DNA of 64,000 nucleotides, from the NCBI GenBank assembly GCA_004379135.1, contig NBNI01000007.1:62001-126000 (forward strand). Direction: 5' to 3'. The stretch is from Acidimicrobiales bacterium mtb01 (lineage in GTDB: Bacteria > Actinomycetota > Acidimicrobiia > Acidimicrobiales > Ilumatobacteraceae). Below are positions 25,169-33,942 of the stretch, piece after piece (within the stretch, counting starts at the first letter, position 1; the number at the start of each line of letters is the position of its first letter). The notes beneath the pieces are model-generated. The model ran no database searches. It was not told where the DNA came from and was given only the letters and a program-made list of their open reading frames with translations. The position numbers were made by a program, and so were the translations under genes.

Positions 25169-26593
25169 ATGAAGACCTACCGCAACTTCGTGAACGGCCA
25201 GTACGTCGACGCCAAGGACGGCAAGACGATCCCGGTGATCGACCCCACTTCGGGTGAGCAGTACGCGACGGCACCCAATTCGGGGGCGGCCGATGTCGAC
25301 GCCGCGATGAAGGCGGCCTCCGACGCCTTCGAGGGTTGGCGCGACTCCACACCGAAGGATCGCTCGCTGGCGCTGTTCCGAATCGCCGACGCGATCGAGG
25401 CCCGGGCGGAGGAGTTCATCGCGCTCGAGTCGGAGAACTGCGGCAAGCCGGTCGGCATCACCCGGTCGGAGGAGATTCCGCCGATGGTCGACCATGTTCG
25501 TTTCTTTGCCACCGCGGCCCGCCACCTTGAGGGCAAGAGTGCGGGCGAGTACGTGCCGGGCATGACGAGTTACATCCGCCGCGAGCCCGTCGGTGTGTGC
25601 GCTCAGGTCGCGCCGTGGAACTACCCGATGATGATGGCGGTCTGGAAGTTCGCTCCGGCCGTCGCCGCCGGCAACACGGTGGTTCTCAAGCCGAGCGACA
25701 CCACCCCGGTCACCACCACGCTCCTCGCCGAGATCTGCGCCGAATTCCTGCCGCCCGGTGTGGTGAACGTGATCTGCGGCGATCGCGACACGGGTCGCGC
25801 GATGGTCGTTCACCCGACCCCGTCACTGGTAAGCGTGACGGGTTCCGTTCGCGCCGGCATGGAGGTGGCCGAAGCGGCCGCCAAATCGCTCAAGCGCGTG
25901 CACCTCGAACTCGGCGGCAAGGCCCCGGTGGTGGTGTTCGACGACGCCGACATCGACGCCGCCGCGGAAGGCATCGCCATCGGTGGCTACTTCAACGCCG
26001 GCCAGGACTGCACCGCCGCGACGCGTGTGCTGTGCGGAGCCGGTGTCTACAAGGACTTCGTGGCGGCGTTGTCCGAGCGGGCCAAGGCCACGGTGTGCGG
26101 CGCCCCCGATTCCGACGACACGTTCTTCGGACCCGTCAACAACGCCAATCAGTTGGCCCGCGTGAGCGGTTTCCTCGATCGACTCCCCAAGCACGCCGAG
26201 GTCAGCGCCGGCGGTTCTCGCCAGGGCAACAAGGGCTACTTCTTCTCGCCCACGGTCGTCAGCAATCTGAAGCAGGACGACGAGATGATTCAGAACGAGA
26301 TCTTCGGACCGGTCATCACAGTGCAGAAGTTCTCCGATGAAGACGAAGCCGTGCGTCTGGCCAATGGAGTGGAGTACGGGTTGGCGTCGAGCGTCTGGAC
26401 GAAGGACTTCGCCCGCGCCATGCGCATGACGAAGCGACTCGACTTCGGCTGTGTGTGGGTGAACACCCACATCCCGATGGTCGCCGAGATGCCGCACGGC
26501 GGTTTCAAGAAGTCGGGTTACGGCAAGGATCTCTCGGCCTACGCGCTCGACGATTACACGCGTATCAAGCACGTCATGGCGAATCTCGCCTGA
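25169..26593 (+). CDS. Aldehyde dehydrogenase, gamma-aminobutyraldehyde/betaine-aldehyde type
   Basis: 474 residues. NAD-binding VLKPSDTTPVTTTLLA, the Glu region HLELGGKAPVVVFDDAD and the catalytic Cys281 in NAGQDCTAATRV are intact, as is EIFGPVITV. It oxidises an aldehyde to its acid with NAD(P)+. The subgroup resembles gamma-aminobutyraldehyde dehydrogenases. The adjacent transaminase, putrescine/spermidine importer and amine oxidase support a role in polyamine breakdown to GABA. This substrate assignment is inference. Confidence 0.92.
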   Translation: MKTYRNFVNGQYVDAKDGKTIPVIDPTSGEQYATAPNSGAADVDAAMKAASDAFEGWRDSTPKDRSLALFRIADAIEARAEEFIALESENCGKPVGITRSEEIPPMVDHVRFFATAARHLEGKSAGEYVPGMTSYIRREPVGVCAQVAPWNYPMMMAVWKFAPAVAAGNTVVLKPSDTTPVTTTLLAEICAEFLPPGVVNVICGDRDTGRAMVVHPTPSLVSVTGSVRAGMEVAEAAAKSLKRVHLELGGKAPVVVFDDADIDAAAEGIAIGGYFNAGQDCTAATRVLCGAGVYKDFVAALSERAKATVCGAPDSDDTFFGPVNNANQLARVSGFLDRLPKHAEVSAGGSRQGNKGYFFSPTVVSNLKQDDEMIQNEIFGPVITVQKFSDEDEAVRLANGVEYGLASSVWTKDFARAMRMTKRLDFGCVWVNTHIPMVAEMPHGGFKKSGYGKDLSAYALDDYTRIKHVMANLA

Positions 26594-26619: not shown

Positions 26620-27990
26620 TCAGCGGCGCGCGAACTCCGACGCGGCATGTTCGATCGCGTCGGTCAGGACGTCGCCGATGAAGCGCAGTTCATCGGGTCC
26701 GCACACGAGCGTGGGCGCGAGGACGAGCACCGGCTCGGCGCGATCGTCGGCGCGGCAGAAGAGGCCGTTGGTGTAGATACGCGGTGACAGGATGTCGCGC
26801 AGGAGCCAATTCGACTCGGCGGCGTCGAAGGTCTGCTTGGTGTCCTTGTCCTTGACGAGTTCGATCACACGGAAGTAGCCGCAGCCGCGCACGTCACCGA
26901 CCAGTGGGAGTCGGCTGAGCGACTCCATCACGTCGTCGAAGACCGGCTCGTTGCGTCGAACCGAACCGAGCACGTCCTCTTTCTCGAGCAGGTCGATGTT
27001 GGCCAGCGCCACCGCGCAACTCACCGGGTGGCCGCCGAACGTGAGTCCGTGCAGCAGGATCTCGCCGTCGCGCTCGATGAAGGGTGCGGCGATGCGGTCG
27101 CTCACCACCACGCCGCCGAGCGGGGCGTAACCGCTCGTGACTCCCTTCGCGAACGTGATCATGTCGGGTTGGTAGCCGAATCTCTCGCAACCGAACCAGT
27201 GGCCGAGGCGACCGAAGCCGCAGATGACCTCGTCGGAAACGAGCAGGATCCCGTGGTGATCGCAAAGCGCTCGCACGCGTTCCCAGTAACCAGGTGGAGG
27301 CACGAGCGCGCCGCCGGTGTTCTGCACCGGCTCCATGATCACCATGGCCACGGTTTCCGGTCCGGCCTCGATGATCGCCCGTTCGACGTCATCAGCGCAG
27401 GCGAGCGAGCATGTCGCCTGCTGCGAGCAGAACCCGCAGCGGTATCGATTGGTGTTGGCGGCCTTGAGCGCCCAGGGGAGCAGTGGTTCGAAGGGCTCGC
27501 GGATCCCGGGAATGCCCGTGATGCTGAGCGCCCCGAGAGTGGTGCCGTGGTACGCGTAGTTGCGGCTGACCACCTTGCGACGCTGCGGCTGACCGATGGC
27601 TGCGAAGTACTGCACGGCGATCTTCCACGCCGACTCCACCGCCTCGCCGCCGCCGCTCGTGAAGAAGACGCGGTTGAGGTCGCCGGGGGCCAGGTCGGCC
27701 AGACGCGTGGCCAGGTCGATCGCCGGTTCGTGGGCGAAACTCCAGATCGGGAAGTAGGCCAGTGACTCGGCCTGCCGAGCGGCCACCTCGGCCAGTTCGG
27801 CGCGGCCGTGGCCGATGTTCACGGTGAAGAGGCCGGACAGGCCGTCGAGGTAGCGACGGCCGGCGTCGTCGAAGATCCACGGACCCTCGCCACGACTGAT
27901 CACCGGCAGGCCCGAGCGCTGAGTGGCGTGGAGGTTGGTGAAGTGGCCCCAGAGATGCCGACGGGCGTTGAGTTGGCGATCGTCGGTCAT
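26620..27990 (-). CDS. Class III PLP-dependent aminotransferase
   Basis: 456 residues, fold type I. The PLP lysine is Lys282 in MITFAKGVTSGYAPLGG. The motif GILLVSDEVICGFGRLG carries the cofactor-ring Asp. The N-terminal region has FFTSGGGEAVESAWKIA. A Cys cluster CGFCSQQATCSLAC near residue 190 could bind a metal or be structural. The family includes putrescine and beta-alanine/omega transaminases. Beside the aldehyde dehydrogenase and the Pot importer, a polyamine amino donor is likely. It is convergent with the dehydrogenase and divergent from potA. Confidence 0.9.
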   Translation of the reverse strand: MTDDRQLNARRHLWGHFTNLHATQRSGLPVISRGEGPWIFDDAGRRYLDGLSGLFTVNIGHGRAELAEVAARQAESLAYFPIWSFAHEPAIDLATRLADLAPGDLNRVFFTSGGGEAVESAWKIAVQYFAAIGQPQRRKVVSRNYAYHGTTLGALSITGIPGIREPFEPLLPWALKAANTNRYRCGFCSQQATCSLACADDVERAIIEAGPETVAMVIMEPVQNTGGALVPPPGYWERVRALCDHHGILLVSDEVICGFGRLGHWFGCERFGYQPDMITFAKGVTSGYAPLGGVVVSDRIAAPFIERDGEILLHGLTFGGHPVSCAVALANIDLLEKEDVLGSVRRNEPVFDDVMESLSRLPLVGDVRGCGYFRVIELVKDKDTKQTFDAAESNWLLRDILSPRIYTNGLFCRADDRAEPVLVLAPTLVCGPDELRFIGDVLTDAIEHAASEFARR

Positions 27991-28146: not shown

Positions 28147-29265
28147 GTGTCGCAGGACCGGGGTGCAGTCGAACTCGAGAACGTCACCAAGCGATACGGC
28201 TCGGTCGTCGCCGTCGATCACTTGAGCCTGTCGATCCGATCCGGTGAGTTCCTCTCTCTTCTCGGCCCGTCGGGATGTGGGAAGACCACCACGTTGCGCA
28301 TGCTGGCCGGCTTCGAGCAGCCCGACGAGGGTTTCATTCGGATCAGCGGCCAGTACGTGCAGGGCATCCCGCCCTACAAGCGCGATGTCAATACCGTCTT
28401 CCAGCATTACGCGCTCTTCCCGCACATGACCGTGAGCGAGAACGTCGCCTACGGACTGCGGCAGAAGGGCGTCAACAAGTCGGAGATGGCCACTCGAGTG
28501 GCCGAGGCCCTCGACATGGTGCAGATGAGCAAGTTGGCCGACCGCAAACCTCGCCAGATGTCGGGCGGTCAGCAGCAGCGCGTGGCAGTGGCGCGGGCGC
28601 TCGTCAACCGGCCGAGTGTGCTCCTCCTCGACGAACCGCTCGGCGCCCTCGATCGCAAGCTGCGCGAAGAGATGCAGATCGAACTCAAATTGCTGCAGAG
28701 TCGGCTGGGCATCACGTTCGTGTTCGTCACCCACGACCAGGAAGAGGCCATGAGCATGAGTGATCGAATCGCGATCATGCTCGACGGCCACATCGAGCAA
28801 CTGGGCGACCCCGAGACGGTGTACGAGCACCCGGCCTCGGCCTTCGTGGCCGGTTTCATCGGTCGCAACAACTTCTGGAGCGGTGTCGCCACTGAGCACG
28901 GGGCTCGCGCCGATGACGGCACCGAATTCGTGGCCAGCCGTCCCGAAGAAGACGTCCCGAACGGCCAGGGTGCTTTGGCGGCGGTCCGGCCCGAGTGCAT
29001 CAACCTGTCGGTCGAGCGTCCGAGCAGCACCAACAACGCCTTCCAGGGCACGGTGGCCGGCGTGTCGCACTTCGGCGACGTGCTCCAGTACGTGGTGCAC
29101 GCCGCCGATCGCGACGTCCTCGTTCTCACGCCTCGTGCCAACGCTTCGCGTCTCCACGCCGGCGATTCGGTCTGGGCGAGTTGGTCCGCGGACGACGTTT
29201 ACCTCTTCTCGTCGCGGCAGGCCGACATCGTTATGGCCGAAGCCGATGAGGTCGAAGACGAGTGA
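28147..29265 (+). CDS. potA: Spermidine/putrescine ABC transporter, ATP-binding protein
   Basis: 372 residues from GTG 28147. Walker A GPSGCGKTT, NTVFQHYALFPHMTVSENVAYG, signature MSGGQQQR, Walker B VLLLDEPLGALD and the H-loop FVTHDQEEA are present. A TOBE-type regulatory domain occupies about 270-372. PotA-like proteins energise import of polyamines. It heads a plus-strand run: potA, potD, fused potBC, amine oxidase, 2-hydroxyacid dehydrogenase. Confidence 0.94.
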   Translation: MSQDRGAVELENVTKRYGSVVAVDHLSLSIRSGEFLSLLGPSGCGKTTTLRMLAGFEQPDEGFIRISGQYVQGIPPYKRDVNTVFQHYALFPHMTVSENVAYGLRQKGVNKSEMATRVAEALDMVQMSKLADRKPRQMSGGQQQRVAVARALVNRPSVLLLDEPLGALDRKLREEMQIELKLLQSRLGITFVFVTHDQEEAMSMSDRIAIMLDGHIEQLGDPETVYEHPASAFVAGFIGRNNFWSGVATEHGARADDGTEFVASRPEEDVPNGQGALAAVRPECINLSVERPSSTNNAFQGTVAGVSHFGDVLQYVVHAADRDVLVLTPRANASRLHAGDSVWASWSADDVYLFSSRQADIVMAEADEVEDE

Positions 29266-29319
29266 CCAGTTTCAGTGACCGATAGTCAGCAACCGATCCA
29301 TCAGCAAGAAGGAGAAGCC

Positions 29320-30567
29320 ATGAACACACCGAAGATGCCCAAGGAGATGAAGATTCTCGCCCCGCACAGTTTCCGGGAGCGCCTGTCGCGCCGCGCCGTG
29401 CTGAAGGCTGGAACCGCGGCCGCAGGCCTCGCGGTGGTCGTGGCGGCCTGTGGTGGGGACGACGACGGTGGATCGTCGGGCGGCGACTCGGGTGGCGACT
29501 CCGGAGGCACCCAGGCGTCGGGCGACTGGAGCCGGGTCATCAACAAGGCGTCCGGCACCCTGGCCATGTACACGTGGGGCGACTACAACGACCCCGACAT
29601 CGTCGGGGCGCTGGCCGAAGCCGAGCTCGGCGTCACGATGAAGGTCGACTACTTCAACTCGAACGAAGACCTCATCACCAAGTTGGCCACCTCCAGCGGT
29701 GCGAGCGGCTTCGACATCGTGGTGCCCACCGGCCCGTACATCCCGCAGATGATCGAGAAGGGTCTCATCCAGAAGTTCGACAAGTCGTTGCTGCCCAACA
29801 TCTCGAACGTCGATCCGGCCTACCTGGCCCAGGAATGGGACCCGAGCAACGAGTACTCGGTCTGCAAGAACTGGGGAACCACCGGGTTCTACTACGACTC
29901 CTCGGTCATCACCCGCGAACTGAAGGACTGGAAGGACTTCCTCGACGTGTGCATGAACGAGGCGAGTGGCAACTGCTCGATGCTCGACACCGGCCCCAAC
30001 ATGTGCGGTGTGTGGTTCTGGGCCAACGGCCACGACTGGAACACCACCGACCCGGCGCTCCTCGATCAGTGCGAGGCGTTCCTGGTCGACGAGTTCGCGC
30101 AGCACGTGAAGGCGTTCGACTCGTACCCGAGCACGGCTCTGGCTGAAGGCGCGTATTCGATCTCGATGGCCTGGAACGGCGACGCCCGCCAGGCGTATTA
30201 CCGAATCGCCGAGAACGGTGGTGACCCGTCCGTGTGGAAGTGGGTGCTGGGCGCACCCGAGACCGAACTCTGGATGGACAATTACTGCGTCCCCGTGGGA
30301 GCTCCGAACCCCGAAGCCGCTCACGCCTGGATCAACTGGGAGCTCATCCCCGAGATCTCCGTCAAGGATCTGCAGTACCACGGCTACAACACCGGTATGA
30401 AGAACATGTCGCAGCTCATCTCCGAGCTCGCTCCCGATCTCGAGTACGGCGACATGATCTTCTTCACCGACGAGCAGGTGAGCACTTTCCGAACCCAGGA
30501 GATCACGCCGGCCATCGACCGTCTCGTCGACATCCTCAACAAGATGAAGGCCAAGGCCGGAGGCTGA
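29320..30567 (+). CDS. potD: Spermidine/putrescine-binding Tat lipoprotein
   Basis: 415 residues from ATG 29320, chosen because GGAG lies 5 nt before it. The N-terminus has a twin-arginine motif SRRAVLK (Arg24-25) followed by a hydrophobic stretch and a lipobox ending VAAC (Cys44), so it should be exported folded and lipid-anchored. The mature part has the PotD-type MYTWGDYNDPDIV, SGFDIVVPTGPYIPQMIEKG and AYSISMAWNGDARQAY. A Gly/Ser/Asp-rich linker follows the Cys. It binds polyamine outside the cell for the fused permease downstream. Confidence 0.92.
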   Translation: MNTPKMPKEMKILAPHSFRERLSRRAVLKAGTAAAGLAVVVAACGGDDDGGSSGGDSGGDSGGTQASGDWSRVINKASGTLAMYTWGDYNDPDIVGALAEAELGVTMKVDYFNSNEDLITKLATSSGASGFDIVVPTGPYIPQMIEKGLIQKFDKSLLPNISNVDPAYLAQEWDPSNEYSVCKNWGTTGFYYDSSVITRELKDWKDFLDVCMNEASGNCSMLDTGPNMCGVWFWANGHDWNTTDPALLDQCEAFLVDEFAQHVKAFDSYPSTALAEGAYSISMAWNGDARQAYYRIAENGGDPSVWKWVLGAPETELWMDNYCVPVGAPNPEAAHAWINWELIPEISVKDLQYHGYNTGMKNMSQLISELAPDLEYGDMIFFTDEQVSTFRTQEITPAIDRLVDILNKMKAKAGG

Positions 30568-30573
30568 TCCTTC

Positions 30574-32613
30574 GTGACCGCCGCGGTGTCGGCTTCCGGT
30601 CGTCGTAGGTTGCGCGGGCCCAAGTTCGCCCTCGCGATCCCGTCGATCGTTTGGTACCTGCTGTTCTTCGCGATTCCGATCGCCTTCGTGGTGATCTACT
30701 CGTTCGGAACCAAGGACCAGAGCCGACTCCTGCCGGTCGACCTCGGCAACCTCACTACAAAGAACTACTCCGACGTCTTCGACGACACCTTCTTCAAGGT
30801 GTTCCGGGCCACCCTCCGGATCTCGGTCGTGGCGACGGCGATGTGCTTGCTCATCGGCCTGCCCGTCGCATACTTCGCGGCGTTCAAGGTGAGCGAGAAG
30901 TGGCGTGCGGTGATCCTGGCCGCGGTGATCGTTCCGAGTTTCACGTCGTTCCTCATACGAACAGTGGCGTGGCGAATTCCTTTGGCTCCCAACGGAACCT
31001 TTTCCAAGTGGCTGTCCGACATCGGGGTGATCGGCGAGCAGGGAATCCAGATCCTGCAGACGCAGACCGCCGTGCAGATCGCGATCATCTACAACTACCT
31101 CGGCTTCATGATCCTGCCGCTGTTCGTGGCGCTCGATCGCATCGACGTACGAATGCGCGAGGCCAGCAAGGATCTCGGTGCCGGACGAGTGGCCACGTTC
31201 TTCGGCGTGACGTTGCCGCTGGCCGGCCCCGGGATCATCGCCGGCGTTCTGCTCACGTTCATCCCGATGTGCGGCGACTACGTCACAGCCACCGTTCTGG
31301 GCGGCGCCAAGGGGAACATGATCGGCTCGATGATCGCATCGCAGTTCTCGCAGGCGCAGAACTGGCCGCTCGGGTCGGCCATGGCCGTCCTCATGATCGG
31401 TGCCGTGCTCCTGGTGCTGGTGGTGAGCGCGCTCATCTACTTCGTCATTCCTCGACTGATCGGACTGTTCGAGCCGCTGGCTCAGAGCTTGCGGGCGGCG
31501 CGCCACGAACGTTCGGTCGCCGCCATGGCCAAGCTCGGCTCGGAGCCCGCTCGGGTGGCCCGAGTCGAACCGGTGCGCATGGCGATGAGCGTCTGGACGG
31601 CTCTCGTCCTGGTCTTCATGTTCATTCCCATCGGCTTGGTGATCCTGCATTCGTTCAACGGTGGTGCCTCGTTCACAATCTGGGCCCGCAACCCGAGCAC
31701 CAAGTGGTGGGGAGAACTGTTCGACGGCGGCTCGACGACCGCCATGCTTCTTCGTTTCGTCGCGATCATCGCGGTCGCGTTGGTGATCAAGCGGATCCTG
31801 GCGGCGCGGTCATCCCTGCCGCCTCGCTCGTTGAACTGGGTGGGTCCGATCGGGTTCGGGATCGCCCTCATCGTGAACGGTCTCGTGACCGATTGGTTCC
31901 GCGACGTGTTCGCCTTCGTGAGCATCGGCGACGCCATCCGCAACTCGTTCCTGGCCGCGTTCGGTGCCACCGTGATCGCGGTGGTCCTCGGAGGGCTCTC
32001 CGGCGTGGCGCTCGCCCGTCGTCCCGGAACCTGGTCGAAGATGTTCATGGCCACCGTGTTCCTCATCCTCGTGACTCCCGAGATCATGGACGCCATCGCC
32101 CTGGTCACCTGGTTCCAGCGCATCGCCGATATCCCGGTGCTCGGATACGTGTTCCGCGAGGGGATCGGACCGTTCAGCGGTGGCATCAGCAAGTTGTGGG
32201 TGGGTCAGTCGCTCTACGCGAGCGCGGTGGTCACGCTCATCGTTCGCGCCCGTCTGGCCGGACTCGACGAGTCGCTCGAAGAGGCGGCGGCCGACCTGGG
32301 CGCCACCCCGGCTCGGGCCTTCCGCCAGATCACGCTTCCACTCATCTCGTCGGCCTTGATCGCTGGGGGTCTGCTGTCGTTCACGCTGTGCCTCGACAAC
32401 GCGGTGATCTCCACGCTCGTGAGCGAAGCCGGATCCACCACTTTCCCGGTGGCGTTGCTCGGCGCCACCAAGAGCACGGTGAAGCCATTCTGGGGTGTGG
32501 GTGCCGTGGTTCTCTTCGTGATCACGATGGCGGCGCTGGTGTTCGTGGCGCGCGTCTTGCGACGCTCGGGCGAGTCGTCGAGTCAGATCGCCGCCACTCT
32601 CGCCGGCAGTTGA
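30574..32613 (+). CDS. Fused polyamine ABC permease (PotB-PotC in one chain)
   Basis: 679 residues from GTG 30574, 6 nt after the potD stop. The first half (about 1-310) is PotB-like with the EAA loop EASKDLGAGRVATFFGVTLP near residue 196. The second half (about 330-679) is PotC-like with EEAAADLGATPARAFRQITLP near 569. In known polyamine importers these are two proteins that pair to form the pore. The second half also has an insertion of about 50 residues after its first helix that adds one or two hydrophobic segments (FVAIIAVALVIKRILAA; FGIALIVNGLVTDWF). Nothing in the frame suggests a sequencing join, because both halves are full length with a long linker. Confidence 0.9.
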   Translation: MTAAVSASGRRRLRGPKFALAIPSIVWYLLFFAIPIAFVVIYSFGTKDQSRLLPVDLGNLTTKNYSDVFDDTFFKVFRATLRISVVATAMCLLIGLPVAYFAAFKVSEKWRAVILAAVIVPSFTSFLIRTVAWRIPLAPNGTFSKWLSDIGVIGEQGIQILQTQTAVQIAIIYNYLGFMILPLFVALDRIDVRMREASKDLGAGRVATFFGVTLPLAGPGIIAGVLLTFIPMCGDYVTATVLGGAKGNMIGSMIASQFSQAQNWPLGSAMAVLMIGAVLLVLVVSALIYFVIPRLIGLFEPLAQSLRAARHERSVAAMAKLGSEPARVARVEPVRMAMSVWTALVLVFMFIPIGLVILHSFNGGASFTIWARNPSTKWWGELFDGGSTTAMLLRFVAIIAVALVIKRILAARSSLPPRSLNWVGPIGFGIALIVNGLVTDWFRDVFAFVSIGDAIRNSFLAAFGATVIAVVLGGLSGVALARRPGTWSKMFMATVFLILVTPEIMDAIALVTWFQRIADIPVLGYVFREGIGPFSGGISKLWVGQSLYASAVVTLIVRARLAGLDESLEEAAADLGATPARAFRQITLPLISSALIAGGLLSFTLCLDNAVISTLVSEAGSTTFPVALLGATKSTVKPFWGVGAVVLFVITMAALVFVARVLRRSGESSSQIAATLAGS

Positions 32614-32619
32614 CGCGTC

Positions 32620-33942
32620 ATGCGCGTCGTCGTGGTCGGGACCGGCCTGGCCGGGTTGAGCGCCGCCGAGTCGCTCGCGAGCGGGGGCGCCGATGTCGTG
32701 CTGCTCGAAGCAACCGAACGCATGGGCGGTCGAGTGCGCACCGTTGCCCTGGGTGGGCAGGTGGTGGAAACCGGGGCCGAGTGGGTCGACTCGACGCATT
32801 GGCGCATGCACGAACTGATGGATCGGTTCGGAGTCGAGCGCGAGGGCGAAGGAATGATCTGGTCGACAATTCGCCGCTGGCTCTTCTGGGACGGCGTTCG
32901 GTACGCGGGTGAGCGAATCGCCGACGTCGACCCGCGGGCCGTCGACGAACTCGATCGCTACGACGACCATGTCGATGCGATGGGTGATGCGATGGCCGAT
33001 CCGTCGCGGCCGTCGAGCCACCCCGACGCCGCCCGTCTCGATTCGCTGTCGTTGGCCGACGCGATGCGAGAACTCGATCTCGGGGCGGTCGCGAGTCTTT
33101 TCGCGCGGCGCAACTCGCAGGGCGAGTTCGCGGCCGAGCCCCGCGACGTCTCGCTTCTCTTCGTCGCCCAACAACGTGCGCAGGAGCGAGTCGAACTCGA
33201 GCGCCTCGGAGTCGAGTTCCGCGCCCACCGCGTGGTGGGCGGTCTGTCGCGAATCGTCGACGGGCTGCGACGTGACGTGGCAAGGAAGGCGGACATCCGC
33301 GTCGGTTCGCCAATGGTGTCGCTCGATCAATCGAGTGGGTCGGTTCGAGTCGGTGTGGCCGACGGCTCGACATTGGAGACTGATCACGTCGTTCTGGCTC
33401 TGCCGCTCGGGCCGCTTCGAGCCATCGAGTTCACCAGTGCGATGCCGAATGATCTGCGCGCGGCCGTGCACGGACTCGGCTGGGGTCAGATCACCAAGAC
33501 GGCCGTTCGCTTTTCGCGCCGCGAGTGGTTGCGTGGATACGGCACCACCGATTCGGTGAGCCAGCGGCTCTACGAGCCGACCATCGATCAGACGGGCGAG
33601 CCGGGAGTCCTGATGGCGTATTGCGGTGGCGACGGAGGGCTCGAGTTGGCCGCGCAGCCCGAGGAGGAGCGCATCGCGGCGATCACCGCCGACATGCGGC
33701 GTGTGCACGGCATCACCGCCGAAGCAATCGATGCGGTGTCGCAGGCGTGGCCCGACGCGCCCTTCGCGCGCGGGGCGTACTCGGTGTATCGACCGGGGGA
33801 GGTGTTGCGGTACTGGGACGTGCTGCGCGCACCGTGGGGGAGAGTGCACCTCGCGGGCGAACACGTCGCCACCTGTACCGGGTACATGGAGGGTGCGGTC
33901 GAGTCGGGTTACACGGTGGCCGCGCGGATCCTCGCCGACTAG
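32620..33942 (+). CDS. FAD-dependent amine oxidase
   Basis: 440 residues. The dinucleotide-binding N-terminus VVVVGTGLAGLSAAESL, with an acidic end VVLLEA, is followed by ERMGGRVRT. The C-terminal FAD region VHLAGEHVATCTGYMEGAVESG is intact. This is the monoamine/polyamine oxidase superfamily, which oxidises C-N bonds and makes H2O2 and an aldehyde. It starts 6 nt after the permease stop, so it belongs to the pot operon. Oxidation of the imported polyamine is the natural inference, but other amines are possible. Confidence 0.88.
   Translation: MRVVVVGTGLAGLSAAESLASGGADVVLLEATERMGGRVRTVALGGQVVETGAEWVDSTHWRMHELMDRFGVEREGEGMIWSTIRRWLFWDGVRYAGERIADVDPRAVDELDRYDDHVDAMGDAMADPSRPSSHPDAARLDSLSLADAMRELDLGAVASLFARRNSQGEFAAEPRDVSLLFVAQQRAQERVELERLGVEFRAHRVVGGLSRIVDGLRRDVARKADIRVGSPMVSLDQSSGSVRVGVADGSTLETDHVVLALPLGPLRAIEFTSAMPNDLRAAVHGLGWGQITKTAVRFSRREWLRGYGTTDSVSQRLYEPTIDQTGEPGVLMAYCGGDGGLELAAQPEEERIAAITADMRRVHGITAEAIDAVSQAWPDAPFARGAYSVYRPGEVLRYWDVLRAPWGRVHLAGEHVATCTGYMEGAVESGYTVAARILAD

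Follow-up and report, generated by a model that had tools for sequence, protein, structure and literature searches.

In the window, i.e. the whole analysed DNA stretch of 64,000 nucleotides, the entire membrane-spanning portion of a polyamine importer resembling PotABCD is likely built as one protein chain. This chain would have arisen stepwise, by the gain of a membrane hairpin and a subsequent in-frame merger of potB and potC. The fused gene starts with GTG and comprises 679 codons (679 amino acids) in a single open frame with 0 internal stops. The start codon is located 6 nt 3' of potD and is preceded by the sequence GGAGG at a distance of 11–15 nt; the gene ends 6 nt 5' of an amine oxidase gene. 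The coordinates of all features are given in Table 1.

Table 1. Features of the fused permease gene and its neighbours in the window.
Feature	Position	Strand	Basis
Aminobutyraldehyde dehydrogenase	25169..26593	+	NF010000, 717.4 bits, above cut-off of 615
Class-III aminotransferase	26620..27990	-	NF005102, 682.5 bits, above cut-off of 574
PotA-type ATPase	28147..29265	+	TIGR01187 (potA), 387.2 bits, above cut-off of 355.6
PotD-type substrate-binding protein	29275..30567	+	PotD model, 119.5 bits, cut-off of 582 not reached
Fused PotB-PotC permease	30574..32613	+	679 aa, one frame
PotB half, residues 1-295	30574..31458	+	PotB model; PDB sequence match; structure match 8y5i_B
EAA loop 1, residues 195-216	31156..31221	+	conserved columns
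Linker, residues 296-335	31459..31578	+	predicted cytoplasmic, fast-evolving
PotC half, residues 336-679	31579..32610	+	PotC model; structure match 8y5f_C
P1 segment, first copy, about residues 372-388	31687..31737	+	match to canonical P1-TM2 profile
Extra membrane hairpin, about residues 385-438	31726..31887	+	helices of the model; two hydrophobic segments
P1 segment, second copy, about residues 433-449	31870..31920	+	match to canonical P1-TM2 profile
EAA loop 2, residues 569-590	32278..32343	+	conserved columns
Flavin amine oxidase	32620..33942	+	PF01593, 239.4 bits, above cut-off of 19.8

In the encoded protein, a linker of about 40 residues connects a PotB half to a PotC half. The PotB model NF007044 matched residues 25–294 (best stretch) with 217.5 bits and the PotC model NF007047 residues 435–663 with 157.4 bits; the equivalog cut-offs of 348 and 326, respectively, were not reached. 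A PDB sequence search with the fused chain assigned residues 22–290 to E. coli PotB and residues 436–664 to E. coli PotC. The family BPD_transp_1 (PF00528) was detected in two stretches with 72.2 bits (cut-off 26.4), and at E 0.001 it matched all 68 rows of a family alignment. This alignment contained 59 of the 64 named full proteins, the window protein and 8 split halves, with L089 and near-duplicates left out. The columns of the EAA residues E196-A197 in the first half and E569 and A571-A572 in the second half were at least 90% conserved. Thus, the preliminary description had correctly located PotB and PotC in one 679-residue chain with one EAA loop per half, near residues 196 and 569. A 792-aa open frame on the opposite strand (29272-31650) covers potD and half of the fused gene. 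Most likely it is a shadow frame caused by GC-rich codon use.

The occurrence of the fused gene was investigated by a search of the genome collection. This search revealed 79 named loci, 64 of which contained the full fused frame (639–686 aa, including L089 with masked bases); in 14 loci the frame was cut by a contig end and in one (L112) it was broken. Identities of the named fused loci to the window protein ranged from 58.7 to 94.8%. Among the 221 genomes of the window's family, 100 gave a match at 1e-60, and according to a manual count about 70 of the family matches listed had a single frame covering at least 600 residues, under seven genus labels. The family genomes and the 79-locus set overlap, and the family name Ilumatobacteraceae as well as the mostly-lake habitat of the relatives were taken from record titles. 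The broken copy (L112/L148, genome G191) carries a frame change inside the PotB half. At 72–77% protein identity, the locus is also present in records that bear the names Bifidobacterium breve or Ferrithrix thermotolerans (L036, L039, L048, L055, L057, L061 and others); the titles of these metagenome-assembled genomes are probably wrong for that reason.

NG86 dN/dS values were calculated against five relatives. They amounted to 0.013–0.124 for the PotB half (4 of 5 pairs computable) and 0.024–0.063 for the PotC core (5 pairs), and to 0.116–0.654 for the linker (5 pairs) and 0.132–0.564 for the hairpin (all five relatives). Judged by these ranges, both permease domains are under strong constraint, and the linker and the hairpin under weaker constraint. 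An assembly join or a frameshift artefact merging two genes had to be considered, since this genome and nearly all of its relatives are metagenome assemblies, the genes lie apart in L129 and the copy L112/L148 is broken. However, the same fused frame recurs in 64 of 79 named loci at the identities given above and purifying selection acts on both halves, which leaves an artefact a practically negligible probability. An assembly join as the source of the fusion was ruled out by the relatives with the same single frame. Hence the frameshift or join between the halves that the preliminary description had kept in mind was not found, and both the fusion and the insertion recur among relatives.

A gene that is fused could still give rise to a separate PotC in the cell, by internal initiation of translation or by proteolysis. 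The linker contains in-frame start codons, with GTG codon 328 following a GGAG at a distance of at most 16 nt, and a 4-nt overlap probably existed between the ancestral genes. Such a stop/start overlap is a known arrangement for coupled translation. Against a separate PotC, Met is conserved nowhere in residues 296–345 (at most 16 of 60 rows per column, Met only considered), and we regard this alternative to a single chain as very unlikely.

The genome of the window (2.56 Mb, 7 contigs, 97.66% complete) was searched with the PotB and PotC models, which revealed no further potB/potC pair. In the search with the PotB model the fused gene scored 208.6 bits and the next match 49.9 bits; a separate intact pair making the fused copy redundant, as the preliminary description had envisaged, is thus missing from these results. 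The best other matches to the PotC model were a ThiP-like one-chain permease of 519 aa and a ModB-like protein, and a further match was a pair without NCBIfam match at 1e-20. A redundant potB/potC was rejected on the basis of these identifications, which cover the stronger matches. The 519-aa protein (L185:3715-5271, G000:C5) is a second one-chain permease with two domains in this genome; its nearest models are those of ThiP, at scores far below the cut-offs.

An AlphaFold2 model of the fused chain was obtained with middling confidence (pLDDT 70.2, pTM 0.70; five models 53–70). It was superimposed on the one-chain permease FbpB (9j4r_A) along both halves with a Z-score of 29.0 and an rmsd of 3.4 over 479 aligned residues. 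The comparison with PotC (8y5f_C) yielded a Z-score of 18.5 and an rmsd of 2.5 with 249 of 249 residues aligned to model residues 336–663; for PotB (8y5i_B) the corresponding values were 17.6 and 3.0 over 264 aligned residues. The claim that one chain carries the whole membrane pore is therefore supported insofar as both permease domains reside in one chain.

The spermidine contacts and gates of E. coli PotD-PotABC, as listed in PMC11414716, served as reference residues. Among these sites, PotC D198, D108 and S106 correspond to D608, E503 and T501, each of which is invariant in the aligned rows having a letter at the position. The scoop-loop residue K223 of PotC is K in 22 and R in 42 aligned rows. 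Furthermore, PotC L191 (L601) and PotB F164 and L213 are kept in the fused chain. Changed sites are Y223, D226, K241 and S113 of PotB (V237, T240, A255 and F126, respectively) and M104, F142 and Y219 of PotC (L499, V552 and L629, respectively).

The neighbouring genes were compared with protein models and solved structures. The PotA-type ATPase scored 396.1 bits against the PotA equivalog PRK09452, below the cut-off of 482. For the PotD-type protein the best match among solved structures was a spermidine/putrescine-binding protein (E 2.3e-34). It contains the sequence AACGG at residue 57, which we take to be a lipobox-like motif. Of 58 loci examined, 53 have PotA and PotD 5' of the permease gene and in its orientation. 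The aldehyde dehydrogenase was matched in 32 of the 58 loci, the aminotransferase in 23 and the amine oxidase in 21, many of the stretches being short. Together, the neighbour genes and the conserved pore residues point to polyamine uptake, as far as can be deduced from sequence. The substrate might instead be another amine, an opine or 2-aminoethylphosphonate. The scores for PotB, PotC and PotD fall well below their equivalog cut-offs (217.5/348, 157.4/326 and 119.5/582 bits), and a polyamine substrate is consequently not certified by them; several pore and gate residues of E. coli also differ. Nevertheless, PotA, PotB, PotC and PotD were the best-scoring models, and PhnU2 (TIGR03262, putative 2-aminoethylphosphonate permease) reached 90.7 bits on the fused chain with a cut-off of 593.25. 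In addition, the aminobutyraldehyde dehydrogenase exceeded its cut-off in the window and was matched in the 32 loci mentioned, the others often being too short. A substrate other than polyamines thus appears unlikely, and uptake of polyamines is preferred.

The PotC half carries an insertion in its first outer loop (P1). In the window protein, 76 residues separate the TM1 motif (SFN) and the PotC core. Among 78 hairpin-bearing sequences, a set from two collections that includes some duplicates, this distance is 76 residues in 61, 77 in 8, 90 in 8 and 71 in 1, versus 12 residues in 19 and 13 in 1 of 20 hairpin-free sequences. The insert therefore measures 64 residues here and 59–78 overall. Two hydrophobic segments were present in all 72 hairpin-bearing proteins scored. 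About 50 extra residues with one or two hydrophobic segments had been described before; the segment is real, but it is larger and contains two. In the AlphaFold2 model the hairpin forms the helices 385–412 and 423–438 (block pLDDT 71–89 over residues 381–440). Since the loop between the hydrophobic segments is rich in K/R (median of 5 K/R and 0 D/E in 72 proteins), an out-in-out orientation of the hairpin is suggested. Counting of hydrophobic peaks in 63 fused proteins gave 14 peaks in 48, 15 in 12, 16 in 2 and 13 in 1, but these counts are crude, and 13–14 peaks were also obtained for plasmid proteins without the insert.

A P1-TM2 profile built from 20 hairpin-free PotC sequences matched immediately N-terminal (E 3.5e-6, single comparison) and immediately C-terminal (E 2.8e-6) of the hairpin; in both cases 0 of 60 column shuffles scored as high. 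Because a P1-like segment flanks the hairpin on each side, a partial tandem duplication of TM1-P1-TM2 is the probable origin of the hairpin. The direct comparison of the two presumed TM1-P1-TM2 units gave a weak result (P 0.0088; 3 of 150 shuffles as good), and with the same profile the TM1-P1 region of PotB scored 22.0 versus 18.1 for the presumed second unit. Duplication of the whole unit was not adopted on this basis; the support is limited to the P1 part. Insertion of a foreign hairpin into P1 is also possible, if doubtful: the hairpin helices alone showed no similarity to canonical TM1 or TM2 above shuffles. The P1-like segments on both sides, each at E ~3e-6, speak against a foreign origin, as does the insert length of 59–78 residues, which is near that of one TM1-P1-TM2 unit. 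Our best guess is that the hairpin constitutes a peripheral, weakly constrained structural element outside the pore. In an order sample, 87 of 397 genomes matched a hairpin-bearing PotC at 1e-25 and only 4 of them aligned through the hairpin, all of the window's family and all fused. The listed matches of the other genomes begin at residue 99 or later, past the hairpin; local alignments may stop at a divergent hairpin, so that its absence elsewhere is unproven.

The order of events was deduced from an IQ-TREE phylogeny of 65 PotB+PotC-core sequences (the window protein, 33 of the 64 named full loci and 31 others). Separate genes bearing the hairpin (L145, L134, L130-L133) branched outside the fused sequences, and L138, which is split and hairpin-free, was sister to all hairpin-bearing sequences. 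The hairpin clade received a support value of 66 and the fused clade one of 72; a single fusion in the hairpin-bearing lineage is likely, though not firmly resolved. As separate potC genes already bear the hairpin, its gain was probably an older event, distinct from the fusion. The tree thus suggests the order separate potB and potC, hairpin, fusion, with one relative split again. This relative, L129 (G063), is nested among the fused sequences, where the closest nodes around it have values of 91, 95, 99 and 100. A frameshift in the linker separates its two genes, reflecting either a sequencing error or a true fission. In 20 of 24 split relatives, including all six hairpin-bearing ones other than L129, the potB stop and the potC start overlapped by exactly 4 nt (RTGA); the exceptions were the re-split L129, L152, L157 and L161.

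A second fused clade (L135, L137 and L146) was placed elsewhere on the tree. Its members, from genomes G215, G223 and G013, resemble the window protein in their fused PotB-PotC adjoining PotA and PotD and in their 14 peaks each, but they lack the P1 insert and carry the two extra hydrophobic segments in the linker. This sister lineage fused independently. L136, which is cut by a contig end, also belongs with it. In a phylum sample of 396 genomes, 146 of which had a match at 1e-40, the full-length single frame occurred among the matches listed only in the window and two family members.

The fused permease was compared with known systems. With E. coli PotABCD (8y5f, 8y5i; PMC11414716) it shares the PotB and PotC halves, the EAA loops, the neighbouring PotA and PotD and the acidic spermidine contacts, one of them unchanged (D608) and one exchanged for a different acidic residue (E503). 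The E. coli permeases differ in being two separate 6-helix proteins without the P1 hairpin and in several gate and contact residues. The ferric permeases FbpB/FutB (FeT family; 9j4r) also consist of one chain with two 6-helix domains, and both halves aligned. However, 9j4r is a ferric importer according to its PDB title and is 17–19% identical; with 479 of the 490 residues aligned to the model, it has too few left to accommodate a P1 hairpin as large as this one. The partner protein of the one-chain FeT/FbpB permeases binds iron, whereas the binding protein next to the fused permease matches the PotD/PotF type. Two plasmid-borne fusions, from Rhizobium sp. 007 (L182:3890-5722) and Pantoea sp. 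At-9b (L183:3980-5743), likewise have a binding protein and an ATPase alongside. Their N-terminal halves best match PotB; the C-terminal half of the former matches PotC and that of the latter PotC and PhnU2. They differ in length (610 and 587 aa), are 26–27% identical and have no P1 insert, the PotC model spanning 248 and 244 residues. Another fused importer component, the PotC-PotD protein NF043073, is of Mycoplasma origin. According to the model description it is also a fusion inside a spermidine/putrescine importer, but one that joins permease and binding protein.

In the passages considered of a 2013 survey (PMC3654945), polyamine-family permeases are two proteins of 6 TMSs and ferric permeases one protein of 11–12; for 6 members of the polyamine/opine/phosphonate uptake family (POPT, TC 3.A.1.11) the table gives a pair of membrane proteins, each with 6 TMSs. 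The window locus agrees with POPT in its adjoining PotA-type ATPase and PotD-type binding protein and departs from it in its one frame with 14 hydrophobic peaks. Measured against these passages, a polyamine-type permease that combines 14 hydrophobic segments in one chain represents a new topology. No paper on a PotB-PotC fusion was found among the open-licence literature matches listed. The earlier statement that polyamine importers use two separate permeases holds for the studied polyamine systems but not as a rule, as FbpB/FutB, ThiP and the Rhizobium and Pantoea fusions illustrate. The fusion is unusual, not unprecedented, given the one-chain two-domain permeases FbpB and ThiP and the plasmid fusions.

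We propose that adjacent potB and potC genes overlapping by 4 nt were the starting point, that a hairpin of two helices was then added to the first outer loop of PotC, with partial tandem duplication of TM1-P1-TM2 as the probable mechanism, and that potB and potC subsequently merged in frame. In the resulting importer, whose membrane topology we infer, a lipid-anchored PotD-type protein would bring putrescine- or spermidine-like amines from outside. A PotA dimer would drive transport from inside, presumably with one PotA per EAA loop. Alternating access would proceed as in E. coli PotD-PotABC, with the two membrane domains covalently joined; that the fusion fixes heterodimer pairing is plausible. 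A more far-reaching reading takes the protein as a 14-helix one-chain polyamine importer with a duplicated TM1-P1-TM2 of PotC, in which two P1 elements face the binding protein. Extra helix pairs would be tied to permease fusion, as two independent fused lineages carry them at different sites, and the hairpin would aid folding, pairing or docking. We consider this reading improbable.

What makes the locus valuable is less the bare fusion than the natural series of steps and the duplicated P1 element. The series, which runs from split genes to split genes with the hairpin, then to the fused gene with the hairpin and back to a split state, illustrates the conversion of a two-gene importer with a 4-nt gene overlap into a single gene. 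A single-chain PotBC would also allow either half to be altered without mixing of subunits. For the organism itself, the fused gene is probably the main polyamine-type uptake route, because it is the only potB/potC pair found in the genome.
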